The notes beneath the pieces were generated by a model. The model saw only the letters and a program-made list of their open reading frames with translations, was not told where the DNA came from and did no database searches. DNA of 64,000 bases from Phycisphaeraceae bacterium (GTDB lineage Bacteria; Planctomycetota; Phycisphaerae; Phycisphaerales; Zrk34), in contig JANQHK010000148.1 in the NCBI GenBank assembly GCA_028282685.1, positions 1-64,000 of the forward strand, given 5' to 3'. Position 1 is the first letter of the stretch, and each line of letters starts with the position of its first letter. This document shows positions 7,024-63,694 of this stretch, piece by piece. The position numbers were made by a program, and so were the translations under genes.

Positions 7024-7142
7024 GGCCGCCATTTTACGGCGGATCAGCCCGCCCGACGAGTCGCCATGCTGGAACAGCCCCGTCTTTCTGCTACGATTAC
7101 ATATCTTTGGGTTCGTCCGAAAGGCGGGCCCGGCGATGTCCC

Positions 7143-7174
7143 AGTGAACCATGTAACCGGTCAATCAGTTAACC
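7143..7174. repeat. Octamer repeat tract (4 units) immediately upstream of nuoG
   Basis: Four consecutive 8-nt units read AGTGAACC, ATGTAACC, GGTCAATC and AGTTAACC, all variants of GATYAACC. The tract ends three bases before the nuoG start codon, and so occupies where a ribosome-binding site would normally be. It belongs to the same family as the tracts near 46.3, 46.8, 55.9 and 62.7 kb. The units are more diverged here than elsewhere, so this is the least certain member. Confidence 0.6.
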
Positions 7175-40869: not shown

Positions 40870-42210
40870 CTATTTTCGCCCTTTTCGGCGGATGCGCGAC
40901 CCGAGCGTGCGATTCGGCGGTCCCTTTGGCGCCACGCCGCCCGGGAACAACTGCGGATCGGGATTCTCGTGGTCGATCTTGTGGTGGGGGGCGGTGAAGC
41001 GGGATTCGGCCACCTTCTGGGCGGCCTGCTCGGCCTTGATTTTTTCGCGCCAGGCCTGCGGAGGGTCCGAGGGCGAGAAATCGGGGTAGTCCATTTTTTC
41101 GATGAGCACGCCGGTCAGCTTTTCGATCTCGGTCAGCAGTTGACCCTGCTCGGCGGTGACGAAGCTCCAGGCCGTGCCCGACGCCCCGGCGCGCGCGGTG
41201 CGGCCGATGCGGTGGACGTAAATCTCCGGATCTTCCGGCAGATCGTAGTTGATGATGTGGGTGATGCCCGGGACGTCGAGCCCGCGCGCCGCCAGGTCCG
41301 ATGCCACCAGGACCTCCAGCTTGCCTTCGCGCAACCGTTTCATGATGCGGTTGCGTTTGGACTGGTGCAGGTCGCCGTGAATCTCGAACGCATCGATCTC
41401 CTGCCTCTTCAGGTGATGTGTCACATCGCGCACGGTGACTTTCATTCGGCAGAAGACGACCGTCAGAGCCGGTTCCTCGTGCGTCAATAGGTGCGTCAGC
41501 AGACGCCGCTTGTCCCAGGGCTGAACGGCGAAATACTTTTGTGTCACCAGCGAAACCGTCAACGAACTGGCCTCGGTGGTCAGACGTTCGGAGTCGGCCT
41601 TCATGAACTTGCGCGCCAGCCGTTCAATCTCCTCGCTGATCGTGGCGCTGACGAAGACGGTTTGCACTTCGTGCCGGATGCCCGAGAGGATGTGGCGGAT
41701 ATCCTCGCGGAAGCCGATGTCGAGCATGCGGTCGACCTCGTCGAGCACCACCCAGCGGAGCTTGCCGTAATCCAGTTGCTTGCGCCGGTGCAGGTCCATG
41801 ACGCGTCCGGGCGTGCCGACGATGATCTGCGCTCCGGTCTTGATGGCGTTGATCTGCTTCTTGAATCCCTCGCCGCCGATCACCCCGGCGGAGCGGATCG
41901 GCGTGAACTTGCCCAACTCGTTCAGCTCCCGGACGATCTGCACGGCCAATTCGCGCGTGGGTGCCAGGATCAGCGCCTGCGCGCCGCCGTCCTCTTCGGC
42001 GTGGTTGAGGATGGGCAGGCCGAACGCCGCGGTCTTGCCGGTGCCGGTTTTGGCCTGGCCCAGCACATCGCCGCCGGCCAACATCAGGGGAATCAATTGG
42101 GCCTGGATATGGGTCGGATGGTCGAACCCGGCCTGACGGATCCCTTTGAGGATGGAGCTGCGCAATTCGAGGTCGTCGAACGTGCGCGACAATTCAAAAA
42201 TTTCACTCAT
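40870..42210 (-). CDS. DEAD-box RNA helicase
   Basis: 446 residues. Helicase motifs in order: Q-motif region GFDHPTHIQAQLIP, I AQAKTGTGKT, Ia PTRELA, Ib TPGRVMD, II DEVD (in place of DEAD), III SAT, IV VVFCRMK, V ASDLAARGLDVPGI and VI HRIGRTARAG. The C-terminal tail is basic (RTLGSRIRRKGRK) and likely contacts RNA. It belongs to the RhlE/DeaD-type group, but no specific substrate can be assigned. Roles usually include ribosome assembly and mRNA decay, often in the cold. Confidence 0.93.
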   Translation of the reverse strand: MSEIFELSRTFDDLELRSSILKGIRQAGFDHPTHIQAQLIPLMLAGGDVLGQAKTGTGKTAAFGLPILNHAEEDGGAQALILAPTRELAVQIVRELNELGKFTPIRSAGVIGGEGFKKQINAIKTGAQIIVGTPGRVMDLHRRKQLDYGKLRWVVLDEVDRMLDIGFREDIRHILSGIRHEVQTVFVSATISEEIERLARKFMKADSERLTTEASSLTVSLVTQKYFAVQPWDKRRLLTHLLTHEEPALTVVFCRMKVTVRDVTHHLKRQEIDAFEIHGDLHQSKRNRIMKRLREGKLEVLVASDLAARGLDVPGITHIINYDLPEDPEIYVHRIGRTARAGASGTAWSFVTAEQGQLLTEIEKLTGVLIEKMDYPDFSPSDPPQAWREKIKAEQAAQKVAESRFTAPHHKIDHENPDPQLFPGGVAPKGPPNRTLGSRIRRKGRK

Positions 42211-42439
42211 AATGAACGAACCTTGTCGCCTTGGCGAAAGGCCCGACGCGGATGGCGCTAACGTCCCCGTGGTTGGCGCGATCGGCGTACGGACCCCTCA
42301 CCCGGCTACGCTTGCATTTTTCAACCGGTTCTGATCGACCGGCCGACACTATCATTAACAACCGACTAGGATATCCTATACGCCCGCCGGTCCGGTGAGC
42401 AAATCGCCTCGGGCAAACGCTTCGGAAAACGGCACCGTC

Positions 42440-43741
42440 ATGATTCACCCCAGTTGGCTTGAAATCGACCTCGCCGCCCTCAGCGAAAACCACGCCTCGA
42501 TCCGGCAATGGGCGGGGGGGGATGTCGATCTCTGCGCCGTGGTCAAGGCCGATGCGTACGGTTTGGGTTGTGTGCCCGTGGCGCGGCGGCTGGCGGAAGA
42601 CGGCGTCTCCATGCTCGCGGTCTATAACGGCGACCAGGCGCGCCAGCTTATCGAAGCCGGGATCACCGCACCCCTGCTGGTGCTCATGCCCGTGCATGAG
42701 TTGGATCGACGCGATCCGGTCTACCGGGCTCTGGTCTCCGGCCGAATGCACCTGACCGTCCACAGCCCCGAGCACGCCGATCAGATCGAACAGATCGGAA
42801 AGCACCTGGGCGCCGTGATGCCGATCCACCTGGAAATCGATACGGGTATGTCGCGCTGCGGGATGTCGGCCGAGCAGGCCGAGCGACTGCTGGCCACACT
42901 GGGCGAGCGGCGTTGGCTGAAACTGTCCGGCATCTTCACCCATCCGGCCTCGGCCGATACCGATCCGATCATGACCGACCGGCAGATGGCGGCGCTGGAT
43001 GCCGTGCTCGAACGCTGCGCTGAGGTCTTGAAAACCTCCCTCCCTCATGTGGGACAGGGACCGAGGCAGGCGGCAGATTCCCCTCGCTGCGAAAGTCATG
43101 GAAGCTCACCCTCACCCCGACCCTCGCCCTTGAAGGGAGAGGGGGTGGTTGTCCACTTCGCCAACACCCACGCCATGCTGCGCGGTCGCAAGTACCATCG
43201 CCAGATGTTGCGGATCGGACTGTCGCTGTTCGGGTTGGGCGATACCGACCTGGCCGGCGGCGAAACGAACCGCCCGGTTCTCAAGCCGATCGTCAGTTGG
43301 CTCAGCCGCATCGCGCACCTGCGCGAGGTTCCGGCCGGTTCGCCGGTGGGCTACGGCGGGACGTTCACCACGTGGCGGCATTCGCGCCTGGCGGTGGTGC
43401 CGTTGGGATATGCCGATGGATACCCGGTCGCCCTGAGCAACCGCGCCGTGGTGCGCATCGGACCGAACCGTCAGCACGCGGCCGTGCGCGGCAGGGTGTC
43501 CATGGCCCAACTGACCGTGGATGTGACTGAAATTCCCGACGCCCAACTCGGCGCCGAGGTGGAGGTGTACGCCGGCGATCCGCAGGCGCCCAATTCCGTA
43601 CCGCGTCTGGCCGAACTGGCCCGCACCCATTGCTACGAATTGCTCTGTCGCCTCTCCGCCCGAATCGAGCGGCGTTACGTGACCAAGCCCTCAGGCAATT
43701 CCGCTGCCCCCATGTCCACGCCCGTTCGCCGCGAACTGTAG
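42440..43741 (+). CDS. alr: Alanine racemase with in-frame repeat insertion
   Basis: About 433 residues. Alr interconverts L- and D-alanine with PLP for peptidoglycan. The Schiff-base lysine lies in AVVKADAYGLG; VHFANTHAML, the catalytic-tyrosine segment VGYGGTFTTWR and PLGYADGYPVAL are present. Residues ~199-235 are foreign to the family and are encoded by a REP-like sequence (43034-43146), discussed separately. Without it the protein has the usual ~390 length. ATG 42440 starts the conserved MIHPSWLEIDL; the in-frame GTG at 42395 is unlikely. Function is probably retained because the frame is open and the insertion lies in a surface loop before a beta strand (inference). Confidence 0.9.
   Translation: MIHPSWLEIDLAALSENHASIRQWAGGDVDLCAVVKADAYGLGCVPVARRLAEDGVSMLAVYNGDQARQLIEAGITAPLLVLMPVHELDRRDPVYRALVSGRMHLTVHSPEHADQIEQIGKHLGAVMPIHLEIDTGMSRCGMSAEQAERLLATLGERRWLKLSGIFTHPASADTDPIMTDRQMAALDAVLERCAEVLKTSLPHVGQGPRQAADSPRCESHGSSPSPRPSPLKGEGVVVHFANTHAMLRGRKYHRQMLRIGLSLFGLGDTDLAGGETNRPVLKPIVSWLSRIAHLREVPAGSPVGYGGTFTTWRHSRLAVVPLGYADGYPVALSNRAVVRIGPNRQHAAVRGRVSMAQLTVDVTEIPDAQLGAEVEVYAGDPQAPNSVPRLAELARTHCYELLCRLSARIERRYVTKPSGNSAAPMSTPVRREL
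43034..43146. repeat. REP-like palindromic sequence inserted in alr
   Basis: About 110 bases inside the coding sequence. The 3' part contains CCCTCGCCCTTGAAGGGAGA, a hairpin around 43121-43144, within a run of CCCTCACCCCGACCC; read in frame it gives PSPRPSPLKGEG, a translation often seen where this palindrome has entered genes. The 5' part (CCCTCATGTGGGACAGGG) is also a small hairpin. The whole piece keeps the alr frame. Confidence 0.8.
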
Positions 43742-43935
43742 CCGAGCCAACAAAGACGCCGTGCGGTCCCAGGTTCTTTCGCCATGTCGCGGTTGCATCG
43801 GTGAACGAAAATCCACCACGAAAATATTTGAACGTAGCGTGTCAACGGCGCGCGTCACTTTTGCAGGAACGCGCGTGCGGCCATCGTGCATCGCAGCAAC
43901 GGAACGGTGACGATATCACGCGAAAGGGGTTGACC

Positions 43936-45465
43936 ATGTGGAAGAAAGTCCTCGCGATCGGATTGCTGTTGGGGTTGGGTGCGGGATTGGTCTGGTGGTT
44001 CTGGCCGGATGAAATACTGCCGCCCAGTGACGAGGCGATTGTCGCCGAGCCGCGCAATCCACCTCTCGTGGAACCGGACGCTTCGGACATCGCCATCGCC
44101 CTGACCTCCAATAACATCTGGATCAATTTCACGGCATCCAAGCAGGTGTTGGGCCGGGTGTTAACGGTCGGCGGCGGCTGGAACCTGGCGCTGGGCGATC
44201 CGCCGGGCGAGATCACCGGCACGATGATTCTCGATGACAGGCGCCGCATCCGCCAGGTTCGCATGCAGATCGCGCTCGATACGCTCTGGTCGGAACACCC
44301 CACGCTGACCCGGGCTCTCAAGGAACGCGGTTTCTTTGATACGGAAAACAACAACCTCGCCACGTTCACCAGCAGCGAAGTCCGTGCGGTCAAACCCAAT
44401 CCCGCTGCGCTGTTCGATGCGACGCACCTGCTCGTCGGCGATTTCCAGCTCAACGGCGTTACCAAGTCCATCGCGATTCCCGCCCGGATTGGAGACGATG
44501 GCGGGGAAGTACGCCTGGAAAGCCGGTTCCAGTTCGAACGCGGCGTCTTCAACGTCCGCTATACCAATCCGTTTTCCATAGTCCCGATGACCGATGAAGA
44601 CATCGGCGAGTCGGTTGCCATCAGCGTGGTGATTGATTCGGCCGGCTTGCTTTCCGACGAAAAGGTCGAACTGATCAAGGGCGGGCCCATGAGGGCCAAA
44701 GACGATCTGAAGGCCACGCCTGCGCAGTTCACCGATACCATTCGCAGCTCGCAGATTGATTTTGACATGGTGCTGGTGCCCGGGGATCCGCAACGGGGAA
44801 TCAAGCCGTTCTACATCGGCAAGCACGAGGTGACATGGGATCAGGTCATGCCCTGGGTGGACGGCAAGGACCTGCCTGACGATCATCTCCGGTCGATTGC
44901 GACAGCGCTGGGATTAAGGCCCTCCAAGCCCTATCCGACAGCCGATCACGGATTCGGCATGTACGATATGCCGTTGCTGGGGGTGCAGCGGCGGGTGGGC
45001 GAGTTTTACTGCAAGTGGCTTTCACGTCAGACCGGGCATGCGTACCGTCTGCCCACCGAGGCGGAATGGGAGCATGCCTTACGCATGGGCGGCATGGACC
45101 CGGACAAACCGTTGACCGAGGAACAGGCCGACAAACATGCCGTGTACGGTGAGAATTCCTACAACGACGATCTGGGCGTCCACAGCACGCTTGAGATCGG
45201 CTCCAAGGAACCCAATGCACTGGGTGTCTACGACATGGCCGGAAACGTCTGCGAGTGGGTGACCGGGACGGGGGCGGATATGGTTGCTCGGGGCGGTCAC
45301 TACGATAAGGAATCCTGGGAAGGCGGCGGTCTGCTGGCGGCGCAGGGTTGCGGTCGTCACGTCGAAGATGAAACATGGAACAGTGGCGATCCGCAGGATC
45401 CCAAGAGCATCTGGTGGTACGTCGACGCCAAGTGGGTCGGCTTCCGCGTGGTTTGTGAGCCGTGA
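43936..45465 (+). CDS. YceI-like domain fused to formylglycine-generating-enzyme-type (SUMF1) domain
   Basis: About 509 residues. An N-terminal membrane anchor (VLAIGLLLGLGAGLVWWFW) is followed by a YceI-like lipocalin-type domain (residues ~50-250; GTMILDDRRRIRQVRM, LVGDFQLNGVTKSIAIP) and then by a SUMF1/FGE-sulfatase domain (about 270-509; FYIGKHEVTWDQV, YRLPTEAEWEHALRMGG, GVYDMAGNVCEWV, ARGGHYDKESW, VGFRVVCEP). The FGE-like domain commonly lacks formylglycine activity and acts as a binding or oxidase module. The start follows AAAGGGGTTGACC. The fusion is unusual; substrate unknown. Confidence 0.8.
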   Translation: MWKKVLAIGLLLGLGAGLVWWFWPDEILPPSDEAIVAEPRNPPLVEPDASDIAIALTSNNIWINFTASKQVLGRVLTVGGGWNLALGDPPGEITGTMILDDRRRIRQVRMQIALDTLWSEHPTLTRALKERGFFDTENNNLATFTSSEVRAVKPNPAALFDATHLLVGDFQLNGVTKSIAIPARIGDDGGEVRLESRFQFERGVFNVRYTNPFSIVPMTDEDIGESVAISVVIDSAGLLSDEKVELIKGGPMRAKDDLKATPAQFTDTIRSSQIDFDMVLVPGDPQRGIKPFYIGKHEVTWDQVMPWVDGKDLPDDHLRSIATALGLRPSKPYPTADHGFGMYDMPLLGVQRRVGEFYCKWLSRQTGHAYRLPTEAEWEHALRMGGMDPDKPLTEEQADKHAVYGENSYNDDLGVHSTLEIGSKEPNALGVYDMAGNVCEWVTGTGADMVARGGHYDKESWEGGGLLAAQGCGRHVEDETWNSGDPQDPKSIWWYVDAKWVGFRVVCEP

Positions 45466-45497
45466 TGTATAACCGGGCCGTTTCGGTCCGGGGGTGC

Positions 45498-45523
45498 CAC
45501 GGCTTCGGCGTAGCCAAGCCGTG
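45498..45523. repeat. Dispersed hairpin repeat, copy 2
   Basis: Arms CACGGCTT and AAGCCGTG with loop CGGCGTAGCC; one base differs from copy 1 at 13917-13942. Confidence 0.75.
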
Positions 45524-45546
45524 CATGCCGGGTTTTTGTATCTGAT

Positions 45547-45575
45547 CCCACCTTGCCCTGTCGGGCGAAGGTGGG
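45547..45575. terminator. Hairpin between convergent genes
   Basis: CCCACCTT and AAGGTGGG flank a second stem GCCC/GGGC with a TGTC loop, making a long continuous hairpin. It lies between the convergent YceI-FGE and pdxJ genes and may end both transcripts. There is no strong T-run, and it may instead be part of the repeat 24 nt upstream. Confidence 0.6.
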
Positions 45576-45583
45576 GCGCCGAG

Positions 45584-46297
45584 CTAGATGAGGTCTTTCA
45601 TCTGTCGCACGGCATCGCGCAGGCCGGTGAAGACGGCGCGGCTGATGATCGCGTGGCCGATGTTCAGTTCCGCCATCTCGGCAATCGCGGCGACCGGCGG
45701 CGTGTTGTGGTAATTCAATCCGTGACCGGCGTGCAGGCGCAGATTGCTTTCGACCGCGCGCTGGCCGGCGGTGATCAGACGGGACAGTTCCGTTTGCCGG
45801 GCGTCATCCGCAGCATTGGCGTAAGCCCCGGTGTGCAGTTCCACGGCATCGAAGCCCAGTTCCGCCGCCGCGTCCACCTGGTCCGTATCCGGATCGATGA
45901 ACGCGCTGACGAAAACTCCCGCCTCTTTCAGTCTTTTCGACGCTTCGGCGGTGCGCTCGCCGTGGACCGGCAGGTCCAGGCCGCCTTCGGTGGTCACTTC
46001 TTCGCGGCGCTCGGGAACGAGCGTGGCCTGGTCTGGCTTGAGGCGACAGGCGATGGCGACGATCTCCTCGGCCAGCGACAGTTCCATGTTGCGCTTGACG
46101 TGGATGACATCGGCATCGCACAACCGTTGTGCATCGTCATCGTTGATGTGTCGGCGGTCTTCGCGGAGATGAAAGGTGATGCCGTCGGCCCCGCCGAGTT
46201 GCGCTTCCACCGCCGCCCAGATCGGATCGGGCTCGTAAGTCTTCCGTGCCTCGCGCAGCGTGGCGACGTGGTCGATGTTGATGCCTAATTCAATCAC
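45584..46297 (-). CDS. pdxJ: Pyridoxine 5'-phosphate synthase
   Basis: 237 residues, the usual length. PdxJ condenses 1-deoxyxylulose 5-phosphate with 3-hydroxy-1-aminoacetone phosphate to pyridoxine phosphate (vitamin B6). Motifs: LGINIDHVATLREAR at the start, GADGITFHLREDRRHI, a following MELS, and C-terminal AELNIGHAIISRAVFTGL. Other DXP-dependent B6 genes are not adjacent. It may serve PLP enzymes such as alr, but the proximity is not evidence of it. Confidence 0.95.
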   Translation of the reverse strand: MIELGINIDHVATLREARKTYEPDPIWAAVEAQLGGADGITFHLREDRRHINDDDAQRLCDADVIHVKRNMELSLAEEIVAIACRLKPDQATLVPERREEVTTEGGLDLPVHGERTAEASKRLKEAGVFVSAFIDPDTDQVDAAAELGFDAVELHTGAYANAADDARQTELSRLITAGQRAVESNLRLHAGHGLNYHNTPPVAAIAEMAELNIGHAIISRAVFTGLRDAVRQMKDLI

Positions 46298-46335
46298 GGG
46301 TCCTCAGTTCCTGAATCCGGCCGCCCATATGGACA

Positions 46336-46375
46336 GGTTGATCGGTGAATCGGTGGATCAGTTAATCGGTTTTAT
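46336..46375. repeat. Octamer repeat tract, left end of the IVP cassette
   Basis: Units on the plus strand: GGTTGATC, GGTGAATC, GGTGGATC, AGTTAATC, GGTTTTAT. The tract overlaps the last codons of the S23/IVP gene on the minus strand; its stop TAA comes from GATTAAC read on that strand. The right tract (46783-46822) is in the opposite orientation. Confidence 0.85.
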
Positions 46376-46742
46376 TCTCATTCATCTGCTTACGCAAGTA
46401 GCTGATGTATCCATTGATCAAGCGGATCACGCTGCGTGCATGCTGTCGCATGTCGTCCAGGTGGTTTGGCTGAAAATAATCCTGATCTTCGCATGCGCCC
46501 AAGTCGTCGATCAGTTCATTCAAACTCCCGCGCGAACGGTATAAATAACTGATGTTATGCTTGTAACTCCTGCTGCCATGGCCTTCAGCAATATTATTCG
46601 TCACAGACAGGGCGGCCCGTCGCATCTGTGGTACAAGTACGTACTTTTCCTCAACCGGCAGTTGAACAGTCAACTTGAATACGCGTTGTCTGAACCGACG
46701 TGCTTCCTGATACGCTTCAAGATCATCAAATTCGCCCGGCAT
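46362..46742 (-). CDS. Four-helix-bundle S23/IVP family protein
   Basis: About 126 residues, beginning MPGEFDDLEAYQEARRFRQRVF and continuing LPVEEKYVLVPQMRRAALSVTNNIAEGHGS, the signature of the 23S rRNA intervening-sequence (S23/IVP) four-helix-bundle proteins. Members occur inside 23S rRNA insertions or free on chromosomes and are related to Avd, the helper of diversity-generating retroelements. This copy lies between two opposed tracts of an octamer repeat and not in rRNA. The ATG at 46742 is chosen by the family N-terminus; the longer frame to 46898 runs through the repeat and into metG. Biological role unknown. Confidence 0.9.
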   Translation of the reverse strand: MPGEFDDLEAYQEARRFRQRVFKLTVQLPVEEKYVLVPQMRRAALSVTNNIAEGHGSRSYKHNISYLYRSRGSLNELIDDLGACEDQDYFQPNHLDDMRQHARSVIRLINGYISYLRKQMNENKTD

Positions 46743-46782
46743 GACTGTCCCCCATGCAGGTTGACTCTGTATGTGTTTCTCC

Positions 46783-46822
46783 GATGAACCGATCAACAGA
46801 TTAACCGATGAACCGGTCAACT
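46783..46822. repeat. Octamer repeat tract, right end of the IVP cassette
   Basis: Units: GATGAACC, GATCAACA, GATTAACC, GATGAACC, GGTCAACT. These are the reverse complement of the left tract's type, so the IVP gene is bracketed by inverted tracts. The tract also includes the metG stop codon (TGA on the minus strand at 46817-46819). Confidence 0.85.
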
Positions 46823-48391
46823 TTTCTCCACTCTCGGAAACAGCGGGTCGCCCTTGGCGATGGGCGTGTCGGGCTTGGATTGGCCCCAGGCGATCCACCG
46901 GGAGAACTGTCCGCAGCCATTGTTGGCCAGGGCCTGCGTGTACGCGGTCTGTCCCAGTCGCTCCCAGAGTTTTTCCATCGCATCGGGGATCACCGGCCAG
47001 AGCAGCAGCGAGGCGATGCGCAACGCCTCGGCGCAGTTGTAAAGAATCGTGCCGACCTTTGGCAGGTTTTCCGGGTCCTTGGCCAGGCGGAACGGCTGGG
47101 TCTGTTCGATGTAGGAATCGATGTCGCCGATCAGCTTGATTGCCGCTTCGACGGCCTGGGCCGGATGCACGCGGTCCATCGCCTCGGTGTATTGGGCGAC
47201 AGCCGTTTCGGCCGAACGGTCGTATTCGTGCGATACGGCGAACTCCCGCCCGTGAGGGGGCAGCTTGCCGTCGAAGTACCGGTTGATCATGTTGGTCACG
47301 CGGCTGGCGCAGTTGCCCACGGCGTTGGCCAGGTCGCTGTTGTACACGGCGACGAATTTGTCCTGTGCGAAGTCGGCATCGGTGGCGCCCATCGGGCCCT
47401 GCGTGGTCAGGAAATACCGCAACGCATCAAGCGAAAACTCCGTCACGTATTCGTCGATTTTTTCCAGATCAATGAAATTGCCCAGCGACTTGCTCATTTT
47501 CTGGCCTTCGGCGATCCAGAAGCTGTGGGCGTAGACCTGGTGCGGCAGGGGGCGGTCCAGCGCCATCAGCAGGGCCGGCCAAATCACCGCGTGGAACCAG
47601 AGAATGTCCTTGGCGATCAGGTGGACACTGGCGGGCCAGTACCGAATGCGGTCGTCGGTGTCGACGGTTGTCAGGTAGTTGAACAGCGCGTCGATCCAGA
47701 CGTAGATACTTTGCTCATCGTCGCCGGGCACGGGGATGCCCCAGCCGCCGGTGCCCGTGCGCGAGATGGGCACATCGTTCAGGCCCTCGCGAATGCGGGC
47801 CAGCACTTCATTGCGTCGCGCTTCGGGCTGGACGAACGTGGGATTGTCTTTTTCGATCAGTTGCAGGAGCCGATCCCGGTAAGCGCTGAGTTTGAAGAAA
47901 TAGTTCTTCTCGCGCTTTCGGACGAGCGGCTGATTGTTGATCGGGGAGCGGAAGTCGTATTCCTTGGCCTTGTTTTCCGGGATGTACTCTTCCTGTCCCG
48001 CATCGTACCAGCCCTCGTATTCGCCGGCATAAACATCGCCGCTTGCCAGCAATTGCTCGACGTACGCCAGCACCTTGTCTTTGTGGCGGTCTTCGCTGGT
48101 GCGGATGAAATCGTTGTTGCTCATGCCCAGGCGGGCGAAGGTGTCTCGGAAGGCGGCGGCGTTCTGGCCGGCCCATTGCTGCGGGCTCAGGCCGCGGTCC
48201 GTCGCCGAATCGACGACCTTGGCCGCATGTTCATCGGTGCCGGTCAGGAAGAACACCTCGTCCCCGCGCAGCCGGTGGTAGCGAGCCAGCACGTCGGCCA
48301 CGGTGGTCGTGTAAACATGGCCGATGTGGGGCCGATCGTTGACGTAGTAGATCGGTGTGGTGACGTAGAATCGGGCGGTATCGGTACTCAT
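46817..48391 (-). CDS. metG: Methionyl-tRNA synthetase
   Basis: 524 residues. Class I signature motifs are YVNDRPHIGHVYTTTVADVL (HIGH) and KMSKSLGN (KMSKS); the anticodon-binding C-terminal domain is a compact helical bundle. The zinc-knuckle cysteines of the E. coli-type enzyme are absent, as in other short zinc-free MetRS forms, and there is no C-terminal dimerisation (EMAP-like) domain. The final few codons and stop are part of the octamer repeat tract, so the natural C-terminus may have been slightly remodelled. Confidence 0.95.
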   Translation of the reverse strand: MSTDTARFYVTTPIYYVNDRPHIGHVYTTTVADVLARYHRLRGDEVFFLTGTDEHAAKVVDSATDRGLSPQQWAGQNAAAFRDTFARLGMSNNDFIRTSEDRHKDKVLAYVEQLLASGDVYAGEYEGWYDAGQEEYIPENKAKEYDFRSPINNQPLVRKREKNYFFKLSAYRDRLLQLIEKDNPTFVQPEARRNEVLARIREGLNDVPISRTGTGGWGIPVPGDDEQSIYVWIDALFNYLTTVDTDDRIRYWPASVHLIAKDILWFHAVIWPALLMALDRPLPHQVYAHSFWIAEGQKMSKSLGNFIDLEKIDEYVTEFSLDALRYFLTTQGPMGATDADFAQDKFVAVYNSDLANAVGNCASRVTNMINRYFDGKLPPHGREFAVSHEYDRSAETAVAQYTEAMDRVHPAQAVEAAIKLIGDIDSYIEQTQPFRLAKDPENLPKVGTILYNCAEALRIASLLLWPVIPDAMEKLWERLGQTAYTQALANNGCGQFSRWIAWGQSKPDTPIAKGDPLFPRVEKS

Positions 48392-48493
48392 AAGAGGGCA
48401 AATTGTAACCGCAATGCCGAGGCGGGGGGAAATCCGGACGAATGGCGAAACTCCGATGACGAACGAGGGCAGGGGAGAACCGGCTACAATGTG

Positions 48494-48676
48494 ATGATGC
48501 GACAGAGGTCTGAAACATCCTTGGAATCATCGGTCCATCGCCGGCGTCGGGGCGTGTGGCGGCGGATCGGGGATTGGGTTCGGGCGTGGCTGAACGTGCA
48601 TCCGGGCTGTTCGGGATGCCGCTTGCCGTATGGCAAGGCGGATGAGCGGAAAAACAGTTCGACCCGTACAGGGTAA
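48494..48676 (+). CDS. Possible small basic protein
   Basis: A 60-residue frame starting with tandem ATGs (48494, 48497) directly after a TACAAT box (48484-48489). The product is highly basic (VHRRRRGVWRRIGDWVRAWL) with a GCSGC pair. There is no ribosome site, and no recognised family. It is divergent from metG and converges on the PBP4 gene. It might be a leaderless small gene or simply open frame in GC-rich DNA; the rest of 48392-48686 holds nothing else evident. Confidence 0.3.
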   Translation: MMRQRSETSLESSVHRRRRGVWRRIGDWVRAWLNVHPGCSGCRLPYGKADERKNSSTRTG

Positions 48677-48686
48677 TGCCGATCGA

Positions 48687-50177
48687 TCACGGCCGGGGGG
48701 CGGTGCGGACCAGCTCGGCGTCGATTTCACGGACGATCTTGTCGATCAGGGCCTTGCCGTTGTGGACCGGACCGGTGTAGTCGTTGAGAATGATGGCAAA
48801 GGCGACGGCGCGGTGATCGTGCTCAATGTAACCGCTCAGCGAGAGCACTCCCTTGAGATACCCGCTCTTGGCAAGGACGCGACCGACGATTTTTCCTCTG
48901 TTGAATCGATGCTCCAGGGTTCCGTTGGTTCCACCCAGCGCCAGGGAGTCGCGGTAGACGGGCCAGAGTTTGGCATTGGAGTGCATGTTCTGGAGCACTT
49001 TCACAAGCAGGCGCGGACTCAGACGGTTTTTGCGGGACATGCCGCTGCCATCGTCGATAACCAGTTGCGATGACTGGGGCCCGAGTTGTTTGGCGAAATA
49101 GTTTCGCAACACCGCGGCGCCGTTCTTCCAGGAACCGGGCTCGCCGGTGGCTTCCCGGCCCAAACGCCTGAACAGCGCCTCGGCGAACAGGTTTTGCGAA
49201 TCCCGGTTGCATCGCTGCAACACCACCGGCAGGGGGGTGCGCACCAGGGCGATCACCTCGGCGTTGCGGTAGTCGGGGTGGTCGTCGGCCGGCGCCACCG
49301 GGCCGACCGTCAGGCCGGCCTTGTTCAGGCGATTGGACAGTAACTCGCCGAAAAACTTCGGCGGATCGTGAATGGTGACGAAGAAGGGCGTCGATCGGTG
49401 CAGCTTGACGCGTCCGTGTACGGTAATGCGGTTGGTTCCCGGATTGCGCGTGAACCAGGGCGCATCGGTGCGAATGTTGGGATTGGTTGTAGCGACAATG
49501 TTGAGCTGAACGGGCGGATCGATCGGCATGGCGCGCACCAGCGGGGCCTGCCCCGATTGCGTCGGCGCGGTGTAAAGGTCCAGGCAGTTGTTGTTGAAAT
49601 TGATCCCCGCCACCTGGGCGCAGTACCAACGGTCCAGTTGATCCGCGGGCCAATTGGGATGAACAAATTGGCGATCAAGGATATGGTCATCGATAATCAG
49701 CCGCCGGATGCGCGTGATGCCTCGACTCTTGATCACACGCACCCACCGGGACAGCATGTCTTCGACGGTCATCGGCGGATCGAGTGAGCCGAGCAGTTTT
49801 CCATCGCCGAAGGCCGGGTCGCCCGAGCCGACGACGATCAGGTCTTCGTCCTGTTTCAGGAGCTTGGTTTCAAAGACGAAATCGGGTCCGAGGATTTCCA
49901 GTGCGGCGGCGGTGGTCAGCAGCTTTTGGTTGGACGCGGGGATCACGGCGCGATCGCCGTCATGCCGGGCAAGCACGAAGTCATTGGCCAGATCAACCAC
50001 GTAGAGTGCGCAGGTGCTCTTGGTTTGCGGCCGCGCCTCGACCAGACGCTGAATGCGAACCTGCAGCGGTTGGGCCGCGAGGGGTTCGGTGAGGGCGACC
50101 AGGCACAGGATAAACAAGCACATCGCCCCGGGCGATGCCTGCAATGGAGAGCGAAGCTGGAATCGACGGCCGATCAT
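48687..50177 (-). CDS. dacB: D-alanyl-D-alanine carboxypeptidase/endopeptidase (PBP4, peptidase S13)
   Basis: 496 residues with an N-terminal hydrophobic export segment (MCLFILCLVALTEPLAAQ). The active-site SxxK motif is SNQK at 82-85 in VIPASNQKLLTTAAAL; the second motif is within DDGSGMSRKNRLSPR and the KTG-like motif is KSG in VLAKSGYLKGVLSLSGYIEH. Long inserted domain between SxxK and SxN is characteristic of PBP4. It removes terminal D-alanine or cleaves cross-links in peptidoglycan, periplasmically. Start choice at 50177 is approximate; a later ATG (MCLF, 50120) would still keep the signal. Confidence 0.9.
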   Translation of the reverse strand: MIGRRFQLRSPLQASPGAMCLFILCLVALTEPLAAQPLQVRIQRLVEARPQTKSTCALYVVDLANDFVLARHDGDRAVIPASNQKLLTTAAALEILGPDFVFETKLLKQDEDLIVVGSGDPAFGDGKLLGSLDPPMTVEDMLSRWVRVIKSRGITRIRRLIIDDHILDRQFVHPNWPADQLDRWYCAQVAGINFNNNCLDLYTAPTQSGQAPLVRAMPIDPPVQLNIVATTNPNIRTDAPWFTRNPGTNRITVHGRVKLHRSTPFFVTIHDPPKFFGELLSNRLNKAGLTVGPVAPADDHPDYRNAEVIALVRTPLPVVLQRCNRDSQNLFAEALFRRLGREATGEPGSWKNGAAVLRNYFAKQLGPQSSQLVIDDGSGMSRKNRLSPRLLVKVLQNMHSNAKLWPVYRDSLALGGTNGTLEHRFNRGKIVGRVLAKSGYLKGVLSLSGYIEHDHRAVAFAIILNDYTGPVHNGKALIDKIVREIDAELVRTAPRP

Positions 50178-50286
50178 GGGCTCGCGAGGTAACGGTTTAC
50201 CGTAACCGAGGCGTTGTAAGCGGTATCGACCGGTCGGGCGAACGGCCTTGAGGATTACCGGCAGTGGGGGCGGACAGGCCGATCCA

Positions 50287-51039
50287 TCATCCTTTACCGG
50301 CCATGGAAGCTTTCAGCTCGCTTTCGAGAAAGAGAATGCGCGAGCAGCTGGGGCAGCGCACCAGCACGTCCTGCGTGGCCAGGAGATTCACCTTTTCCAC
50401 GGGAATCTGCATGTAGCAGCCGCCGCAGGTGTACTCCATCCGCCGGCGGTCTTCCTCGATGACCGGAGCCATGGCTTCGCCTTCGTAAGTTTCAACCAGC
50501 CGCTCGAAGACGCTCAGCGGTTCGGGGTTGACGGCGTCGGCCGCCTTCTCCCGGTCTGCCTTAAGGGCGTTCAGCTGTTCGCTGACTTCGGCGGTGCGCT
50601 CGTCCAGTTCTTTGTCCGCCACCAGTTTGATGCGCTGCTGCTCAGCCAACTGCTGTTCTATGGCCTGCAGTTCGGCCTGGAACCCTTCCACGCGGCTCAT
50701 TTGCTCCAGCAACTGGTCTTCCAGTTTTCCTTTTTCGGCCTTGAAGGTGTTGACCTCCACCAAGAACGCCGAATACTCCTTGTTGGTCTTGGCGGTGTTC
50801 ATCTGGCTGCGCAGCTTATCGATGCGCTCGTCGATGGCGCTGATTTCGTTTTCCAGGCTGCCGCCGTGCGCTTGCGCCTGCTTGAGTTGATTCAGAATCT
50901 CGTCGCGCTGCTGGGTGAGTTGGTCGATCTTGATCTGCTGCACCCGAACGTGCCGGCGCGCTCCATCCAGCCGGCTTTCCAGGCCCCGTACCTGCTGGTC
51001 GACCAGGAAGAGGGCGTGGAGCGATTCGTTGATGGTCAT
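50287..51039 (-). CDS. Coiled-coil plus C4 zinc-ribbon protein (CT398/DUF164-like)
   Basis: 250 residues. About 180 residues of continuous coiled coil (QQVRGLESRLDGARRH ... QLAEQQRIKLVADKEL) are followed by a zinc ribbon with CGGCYM and later CPSCSR pairs. This matches the CT398 (DUF164) family of Chlamydia and Planctomycetota, reported as binding RpoN and flagellar or secretion components in Chlamydia. Here the partner is unknown. Confidence 0.85.
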   Translation of the reverse strand: MTINESLHALFLVDQQVRGLESRLDGARRHVRVQQIKIDQLTQQRDEILNQLKQAQAHGGSLENEISAIDERIDKLRSQMNTAKTNKEYSAFLVEVNTFKAEKGKLEDQLLEQMSRVEGFQAELQAIEQQLAEQQRIKLVADKELDERTAEVSEQLNALKADREKAADAVNPEPLSVFERLVETYEGEAMAPVIEEDRRRMEYTCGGCYMQIPVEKVNLLATQDVLVRCPSCSRILFLESELKASMAGKG

Positions 51040-55904: not shown

Positions 55905-55984
55905 GGCAAACTGGTTAACTGGTTGATTTGTTGATTGGTTAACTGGTTAAATGGTTGATTCGTTGATTCGTTGATTTGTTGTCA
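55905..55984. repeat. Octamer repeat tract (about 9-10 units)
   Basis: Longest tract in the window. Units from 55905: GGCAAACT, GGTTAACT, GGTTGATT, TGTTGATT, GGTTAACT, GGTTAAAT, GGTTGATT, CGTTGATT, CGTTGATT, TGTTGTCA. It begins 4 nt after the stop codon of the preceding small gene. It is the same family as the tracts near 7.1, 46.3, 46.8 and 62.7 kb. Confidence 0.9.
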
Positions 55985-62269: not shown

Positions 62270-62764
62270 ATGAACATTCGACGCCAGATTCGCCGGCTGG
62301 CCGTGCAGGCCCTGTACCAGATCGATGCGCATGGCGGGGACGATCCGCAGGAAATCCGCCGGATCGTGCGCCGCATCGTCGAAATCGACGACGATGAGTC
62401 CGATCCCTCACGCACCGGCGAATCCCTGAACGAAGAGGAACTGGCCATGGCCGCCGACTGGGCGATCGGCGCCTGGGCCGAGCGCGAAGCATCCGATGCG
62501 TTGACCGCGGAATTGGCCCCCGGCTGGCCGGCCACGCGCCAGCCCGCCATGGACCGCGCCCTGCTCCGTTTGTCCCACCACGAAATGGCCGCGGACCTCA
62601 CGCCGCACAAGGTGGTCATCAACGAGGCCGTCGAACTGGCCAAGCAGTTCGGCACCGAGCGCAGCCCGGCGTTTATCAACGGCGTCCTCGATAAGATGTT
62701 CCGCCGCCTCCGGAGCACGGTGGAGCCCAAAACGGATCAACTGAATAACGGATCAACGGATTAA
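62270..62764 (+). CDS. nusB: Transcription antitermination factor NusB
   Basis: 164 residues. NusB binds boxA in rRNA operons with NusE. The helical fold is recognised from [16 protein letters not shown] at the start, then [15 protein letters not shown] and [29 protein letters not shown]. An acidic loop of ~25 residues is inserted in the middle. The last nine residues (DQLNNGSTD) and the stop come from an octamer repeat tract. It is followed by ftsY after 6 nt. Confidence 0.92.
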
Positions 62765-62766
62765 CG
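62735..62766. repeat. Octamer repeat tract at the 3' end of nusB
   Basis: Units: GATCAACT, GAATAACG, GATCAACG, GATTAACG, ending 4 nt before the ftsY start. The TAA stop of nusB is inside the last unit. Confidence 0.8.
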
Positions 62767-62770
62767 CATC

Positions 62771-63694
62771 ATGGGTTTGTTTTCCAAAGTTTTTTCCCAG
62801 GTCAAAAAAGGCCTGGCGCGCACGCACCAGACGTTCGTCGGCGGTCTCCGTTCGCTGTTGACCGGCCGCACGCTCAGCGATGAGCTGTTAGAGCAACTCG
62901 AAGCCCGACTCATCCAGTCCGACATCGGCGTGAAGACCACGGCGCGCCTGCTTGAGGAAATCCGCCGCGCCCATAAGGAGGGCGAGATCGACAAGGGCGA
63001 GCAGGTGTTGGAATACCTCAAGCAGCACCTGATGGATTTCTGGCCGCGGGACGATCGTCGTCTGCGCTTTGCCGAATCCGGGCCGACGGTCATTCTTGTT
63101 GGCGGGATCAACGGGGCGGGCAAGACCACCAGCATCGCCAAGATCGCCAAATCCCTCCGCGACGAAGGCAAGACGGTGCTCCTGGCGGCCTGCGATACCT
63201 TCCGCGCCGCGGCGGTCGAGCAATTGGAAATCTGGTCGCAGCGGCTCGGGGTGGAAGTGGTCAAGGGCAAGCAGGGCGGCGATCCGGCGGCGGTGGCGTT
63301 CGATGCCTGCGAAGCGGCGCAGGCGCGCGGGATCGATGTCCTGCTGGTCGACACCGCCGGCCGTCTGCACACGCAGGACCACCTGATGCGCCAGCTTACG
63401 AAAATCCGTGACGTGGCGGCCAAGCGGATCGACGGCGCGCCGCACGAAGTCATTCTCGTGCTTGATGCCACCACCGGCCAGAACGCCATCCAGCAGGCCC
63501 GACTATTCAAGCAGGCGATCGACGTGACCGGCGTGTTCCTGGCCAAGCTCGACGGCACCGCCAAGGGCGGCATTGTCGTCGCCATTCGGGAACAGGTGGA
63601 CATTCCGGTCAAGTTTATCGGGGTGGGCGAAACGCCGGACGATGTCGAGCCCTTCGATCCGCAAACGTTTGTCGAGGCGTTATTTGCCGATTGA
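62771..63694 (+). CDS. ftsY: Signal recognition particle receptor FtsY
   Basis: 307 residues. The NG domain of the SRP GTPases is complete: G1 GGINGAGKTTS, G2 DTFRAAAVEQL, G3 DTAGRLHTQD, G4 TKLDGTAKGG and a C-terminal VKFIGVGETPDDVEPFDP. The acidic A-domain of E. coli FtsY is absent; the short basic N-terminus (MGLFSKVFSQVKKGLARTHQTF) is likely the membrane-targeting helix. FtsY recruits ribosomes with nascent membrane proteins to the translocon. It follows nusB closely. Confidence 0.95.
   Translation: MGLFSKVFSQVKKGLARTHQTFVGGLRSLLTGRTLSDELLEQLEARLIQSDIGVKTTARLLEEIRRAHKEGEIDKGEQVLEYLKQHLMDFWPRDDRRLRFAESGPTVILVGGINGAGKTTSIAKIAKSLRDEGKTVLLAACDTFRAAAVEQLEIWSQRLGVEVVKGKQGGDPAAVAFDACEAAQARGIDVLLVDTAGRLHTQDHLMRQLTKIRDVAAKRIDGAPHEVILVLDATTGQNAIQQARLFKQAIDVTGVFLAKLDGTAKGGIVVAIREQVDIPVKFIGVGETPDDVEPFDPQTFVEALFAD

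Follow-up and report, generated by a model that had tools for sequence, protein, structure and literature searches.

S23/IVP genes between mirror-image arrays of lineage-specific 7-8 nt repeats point to a widespread class of selfish element

Results and discussion

An array-framed S23 gene between pdxJ and metG

The window, i.e. the whole stretch of 64,000 nucleotides that was analyzed, carries an S23/IVP gene framed by two opposed octamer tracts between the start of pdxJ (46297) and metG (Table 1). This layout, with a gene of 126 codons inside a 487-bp unit, had been proposed in an initial annotation of the same DNA and is confirmed by tract scores relative to shuffled sequence and by profile matches of the encoded protein. 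Using a periodic octamer model, the maximum among 30 shuffled 64-kb windows was 16.9, well below the score of the left arm (Table 1) and that of the right arm (35.9, counted with a degenerate sixth unit at 46775-46782). The octamer GGTTGATC taken singly is not strikingly rare (7 matches versus 2.8 expected); the striking part is its tandem arrangement. Both arrays overlap neighboring coding sequence. The left array contains the stop codon of the S23 gene, and the metG stop codon, formerly placed beside the unit, in fact lies within the right arm, whose outermost unit also includes the last serine codon of metG.

No matches to rRNA or other Rfam families were present within 45000-48500, in agreement with the earlier placement of the unit outside rRNA. 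Whereas 23S rRNA intervening sequences interrupt an rRNA gene and are excised by RNase III, the element does not lie in one; it does have in common with them an S23 open reading frame inside terminal inverted repeats capable of forming a stem, and terminal inverted repeats are also a feature of insertion sequences and MITEs. A search for a defence role gave no PADLOC match, and no part of a diversity-generating retroelement (reverse transcriptase, template repeat) was seen among the open reading frames of 42000-51000, which were read by eye. Three further tracts of the same octamer family were located elsewhere in the window (Table 1). A nusB-like reading frame (62270-62764) ends in one of them, indicating that arrays can reach into coding sequence.

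Table 1. Positions of the S23 element, its parts and related octamer tracts in the 64-kb window
Feature	Position	Strand	Description
Whole S23 element	46336-46822	.	487 bp from outer edge to outer edge, between pdxJ and metG
Left arm	46336-46367	+	Four octamers, GGTTGATC GGTGAATC GGTGGATC AGTTAATC; unit reads inward; tract score 29.7
Right arm	46783-46822	-	Five octamers, AGTTGACC GGTTCATC GGTTAATC TGTTGATC GGTTCATC; inverted relative to left arm
S23/IVP gene	46362-46742	-	126 codons; ATG at 46742, stop at 46362
metG stop codon	46817-46819	-	In outermost right-arm unit (AGT TGA CC)
Gene-less octamer array	55912-55976	+	About 8 units of TGGTTGAT; same family as window element; intergenic, beside trpC-like gene
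Gene-less octamer array	62735-62774	-	Same family as window element; makes the 3' end of a nusB-like reading frame
Weak degenerate octamer tract	7135-7174	.	Same family as window element; score 17.6, barely over shuffles

Predicted structure of the S23 protein

We know of no role established since the 1990s for S23/IVP proteins, which occur in many phyla. The window gene matched PF05635 with 98.6 bits (E 3e-28, curated cut-off 33.8) and TIGR02436 with 90.5 bits (curated cut-off 24). Its product, modeled as a monomer, was predicted to form a helical bundle (pLDDT 95.7), and the predicted structure superposed on the solved S23 family proteins XCC0516 (2gsc; TM 0.85, rmsd 1.2) and BT_0352 (2rld; TM 0.76) as well as on Avd of diversity-generating retroelements (4dwl; TM 0.75, with a sequence identity of only 14%), consistent with a four-helix bundle of the XCC0516 type. 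The 2gsc and 2rld entries contain five chains each, a title cited by PMC3936711 describes five four-helix bundles assembled in XCC0516, and Avd (4dwl, 8ub7), of similar fold, is pentameric according to the literature. Neither a catalytic residue nor a nuclease was seen in the S23 protein.

Other S23 genes and octamer tracts of the window genome

Genome-wide repeat counts rest on pattern searches, and a two-unit octamer pattern gave 51 matches in the window genome compared with 1 for the reversed control. The genome contains five S23 genes, only two of which (L002 and L004) carry the window-type octamer. The other three carry inverted arrays of other units: AAGGCAY at L001 (score 48, over controls), a shorter GTTCAGT-type pair at L003 and a CCGAAAY-type pair at L005, the latter two seen by eye in the flanks and scoring inside the control range. 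The octamer as a signature of the window S23 gene alone is ruled out by the dozens of gene-less NGTTRATY tracts in this genome and by the different units at other S23 genes. The initial annotation had also held that S23 genes without such tracts would speak against a cassette. Since the other S23 genes bear different units, looking for this octamer alone would have misled. Convergent octamer tracts on contigs C56 and C133 are 1.1-1.4 kb apart, with unrelated genes in between.

Distribution of the layout across genomes

In order to establish how widespread this layout is, S23 loci were given a flank score combining tandem periodicity on each side with reverse complementarity between the sides. 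Across 94 S23 loci from the window genome and 60 relatives in the same order, the median score was 54, compared with a maximum of 46 at shifted positions in the same loci, and 78 loci scored above all 60 window control positions and all shuffles (maximum 44). Chance or low complexity is ruled out as a source of the arrays by the shuffles, the shifted positions and the window controls. By our count, approximately 56 of 80 loci from named public genomes scored above the 99th percentile of 146 shifted controls; scores of these controls extend up to 53, since gene-less arrays occur too. The array-framed named loci belong to Bacteroidota, Clostridia, Acidobacteria, Deltaproteobacteria, Nitrospirae, Verrucomicrobia, Elusimicrobia, Planctomycetota, Patescibacteria and others, and four further genomes contributed 13 S23 loci with scores of 47-68. 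With few exceptions the unit is 7 nt long (93 loci) or 8 nt long (27), and it differs between loci. Elements have a median length of 467 bp (5-95% range 430-584), with arms of four to five units, a rough figure because the detection window sets a floor of about 4.4 units to the estimate by extension.

Some ten loci were without arrays, among them one protein clade (L060, L061, L063, L064, L099) together with L111, L113, L115, L124 and L125, which include the pairs L111/L115 and L124/L125. Low-scoring S23 loci were also considered as possible rRNA insertions, and no rRNA was found at the 11 loci tested. As a separate observation, some arm units at L181, L172, L213 and L039 look like plant-type telomere repeats (TTTAGGG), a likeness into which G-rich heptamers probably fall by chance.

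Arms as part of the element

The two arms of an element are near copies of each other. The ungapped stem between them has a median of 28 nt, whereas mismatched arms, drawn from separate loci, give 8 nt. Identity between arms (0.91) exceeds that of an arm against itself shifted by whole units (0.79; p = 6e-17), so imperfect units tend to stand in the same order in both arms, as at L036 (34 of 34). A common polarity was also evident, with G exceeding C on the inward-read strand at 109 of 120 loci (p = 2e-21).

The unit tracks the lineage of the protein. Similarity between repeats correlated with protein identity (Mantel r 0.378), a value that none of 5000 permutations equaled (maximum 0.11) and that was little changed when only pairs from different genomes were used (r 0.349). 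Motifs are still common to pairs at 48-57% protein identity, which would not be expected of unselected intergenic DNA, and a single genome can contain several units, each belonging to a different S23 lineage. This tracking could in part reflect joint descent rather than binding. Among 30 orthologous elements at one Flavobacterium site, an element's own arms pair better with each other than with those from different species (p = 1e-4). Similarity of the left arms remains correlated with that of the right arms after correction for internal divergence (partial r 0.47). The two arms have changed in concert at this site, e.g. from CTAAG-type to CAAAG-type units.

Occupied and empty sites

The genes metG and pdxJ are adjacent in seven of eight relatives of the window genome. 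Comparison of this interval across relatives, which had been proposed as a check, revealed that presence of the cassette differs: the window genome has the S23 element there, G006 has a pair of octamer units, and in G004 and G005 the interval is short, with nothing inserted. In G001 and G003 the interval holds RAYT transposase cassettes with REP-like palindromes (L264, L265). No transposition event or target-site duplication was seen, the flanks of the empty intervals, in these relatives and in Flavobacterium, being too diverged to fix the junction.

A similar alternation was found in Flavobacterium. The gmk-nadD interval contains an S23 element (approximately 425-610 bp) in many species and gene-less inverted arrays of several unrelated units in others, and is empty at 33 bp in G209. 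A second Flavobacterium site likewise holds S23, gene-less inverted arrays, or nothing. The S23 insertions at both sites are common to many Flavobacterium species and are hence old and stable. Other sequences were also encountered at the two sites: a DoxX-like gene takes the place of the element in the gmk-nadD interval at L244, L247, L248, L251 and L287, and long palindromic repeats of another family (CCTCTCCCCGACCCTCTCC...) stand at L345, L349 and L356 of the second site where other genomes have S23. Within genera and families the occurrence of S23 is patchy, and related elements are found in unrelated contexts. The S23 proteins of L140, L145 and L153, for example, are 67-72% identical; the three elements all carry AGG-type octamers and span phyla (KSB1, Desulfobacteraceae and Nitrospirae).

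Arrays without a gene

Dispersed arrays are most abundant where the matching S23 gene is present. GTTRAYY array matches numbered 125, 92 and 89 in three genomes with a cognate S23 and 0-28 in 15 other genomes (28 in G006, 11 in G005, 2 in G008 and none in the rest); the reversed control gave 19 matches in G000 and 91 in G001, where some units fit the reversed pattern, making those two counts less clean. For RAGGCAY, 21, 11 and 7 arrays were counted where a cognate octamer S23 is present (three genomes), compared with 0-2 in the others. Gene-less arrays dispersed over a genome often stand alone rather than in pairs. At least 11 gene-less inverted pairs with short spacers were nevertheless found in G007, with the same inward polarity as the S23 cassette. 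Derivation of such pairs by internal deletion of an S23 cassette was considered and rejected for G007, as the spacers are mutually unrelated.

Two further observations concern individual genomes. The 28 GTTRAYY matches of G006 occur without a recognized cognate S23, which may mean that the S23 partner has been lost or that it acts in trans. In G001, several contigs (C13, C17, C19 and C26) end in perfect GTTGACCA arrays, probably representing assembly breaks in longer arrays.

Interpretation of the S23 element

The best explanation, to which we assign a probability of roughly 0.6, is that the S23 element is a selfish element similar to REPtrons, in which an S23 gene lies between inverted arrays of a lineage-specific 7-8 nt unit that is recognized as DNA. 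The observations that it brings together are the architecture, the near-identical arms with their inward G-rich polarity, the tracking of protein lineage by the unit, the concerted change of arms, site occupancy, gene-less copies and purifying selection. The cassette idea of the initial annotation, that gene and inverted arrays form one element with a protein matched to its repeats, is well supported by the comparative part of this evidence, namely site occupancy, repeats that track the protein lineage, arms that evolve together and the gene-less copies scattered over genomes; that the element moves, and that the S23 protein binds or expands the repeats, we infer. The S23 protein would recognize its own arrays as double-stranded, single-stranded or hairpin DNA, and host replication or repair functions may copy or move the element ends. 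A pentamer facing four to five or more units, by a rough count, would be suggestive of one unit per subunit. A wider reading is offered only tentatively, namely that S23/IVP represents a class of mobile element without a recognizable transposase, whose pentamer would recognize 7-8 nt units and both seed and maintain inverted arrays, with and without the gene. Such a class would explain many orphan heptamers and octamers, and rRNA intervening sequences would be its copies in rRNA genes.

An unlikely alternative, though the most probable of those considered, places the function of the arrays in RNA, as a stem bound by S23 and involved in 3' end protection, termination or RNase III processing. 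The arms do pair into a long stem (the window element has a folding energy of -154.5 kcal/mol, z -2.28), rRNA intervening sequences hold S23 together with a 28-bp stem cut by RNase III (PMC4990558), and the homologue Avd works as part of a ribonucleoprotein that includes reverse transcriptase (8ub7 and related entries). Selection on a transcript stem, however, would be expected to leave an excess of G-U over A-C among stem mismatches on the sense strand, where 92 G-U and 101 A-C were counted (p 0.56). The lack of such an excess favors DNA over a selected transcript stem, and the dispersed gene-less arrays, frequently unpaired, likewise speak against an RNA function.

Domestication of S23 by the host for a cellular function, with the arrays as a leftover or a cis-regulatory device, is also improbable. 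In its favor, S23 has long been retained at both fixed sites in Flavobacterium, where the two sets show purifying selection (dN/dS 0.10 and 0.12). These old stable insertions, which a domesticated gene would fit equally, count against the selfish-element reading, as do the arrayless S23 clades, the unrelated spacers of the G007 pairs and the G006 matches that lack a recognized cognate S23. Against domestication are the patchiness within genera and families, the related copies in unrelated contexts and phyla, and the retention of matched arrays on both sides of the gene.

A lower likelihood still is given to the proposal that the arrays are ordinary host intergenic repeats produced by replication slippage, between which S23 genes land or survive. 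Short tandem repeats are widespread in bacteria (PMC6749651), and the genomes and sites that have S23 elements commonly have arrays and inverted pairs with no gene as well. Against slippage are a unit proper to each S23 lineage across genomes and phyla, with several units per genome, and arms that are near copies with a common G-rich inward polarity, and the shifted controls suggest that other positions are not framed by matched inverted arrays. Mobilization of S23, as a non-autonomous passenger, by a RAYT/Y1 transposase with REP cassettes in the same intergenic sites is hardly credible in spite of the RAYT cassettes between metG and pdxJ in two relatives and four Y1 transposase matches in the window genome, given that G061 (Flavobacterium) and G580 have S23 elements and arrays with zero Y1_Tnp matches and that array units are tandem 7-8-mers, not single palindromes.

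Relation to known systems

The S23 elements interpreted here as selfish have their closest counterparts in 23S rRNA intervening sequences and REPtrons. Intervening sequences encode the same protein family and are of similar dimensions, the Coxiella burnetii intervening sequence being 428 nt long with a 28-bp terminal stem (PMC4990558), compared with medians of 467 bp and 28 nt for S23 elements, and they have been proposed to be selfish or mobile (PMC4990558). Unlike them, the S23 element is intergenic, and its inverted repeats are arrays of a 7-8 nt unit, with gene-less relatives dispersed in large numbers. The window element has the appearance of an intervening sequence located outside rRNA. 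REPtrons, consisting of a RAYT gene, REP palindromes and dispersed REP/BIME (PMC3733652), resemble S23 elements in inverted framing, lineage-specific repeats, gene-less copies and the use of intergenic sites, even the metG-pdxJ interval. Inverted flanking repeats and dispersed gene-less copies are both present in the case of the window element; the gene for a Y1_Tnp (HUH tyrosine transposase) is not, as the window gene matches PF05635 only. In place of a transposase there is a four-helix bundle with no known nuclease, and the tandem units again differ from the single palindromes of REPtrons.

Searches of the open-access literature with S23/IVP family names and accessions recovered no report of such arrays, and within that literature the arrays around S23 genes are new. 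They offer the S23 protein a testable partner, its own array, and would provide the ownerless heptamer and octamer arrays of bacterial intergenic DNA with an owner. If the reading as a selfish element is correct, a REPtron-like system whose protein has no known nuclease would be added, rRNA intervening sequences would become part of a larger family, and variable intergenic repeats would have a cause. Reported links of S23 genes to CRISPR loci (PMC3936711, PMC10910872) could also be re-read in light of the arrays.

An S23 gene between GGGAATC arrays

Intergenic arrays of 7-nt units similar to those of S23 elements have been described in other contexts. Xanthomonas has nearly 200 GGGAATC arrays per genome, with approximately 70 convergent pairs and conserved positions, and GGGGATT arrays occur in Nostoc (PMC4692102); TAACTGA arrays are also on record (PMC4679880). 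S23 is not mentioned in either paper, and no link to a mobile element was found in them. Ownership of such arrays by S23 elements would predict that, in a genome bearing GGGAATC arrays, an S23 gene lies between arrays of this unit. Among 369 Gammaproteobacteria, GGGAATC arrays were present in one, G580, and its only S23 gene (L292) is framed by inverted GGGAATC arrays, in agreement with the prediction in this one genome. L292 lies between genes read by eye as accB-like and accC-like and has an apparent frameshift; it is a decaying copy. The same genome supplies the exception to the unrelated spacers of gene-less pairs, with the pair L291 having GGGAATCGTTCAAGC in common with the S23 cassette L292.
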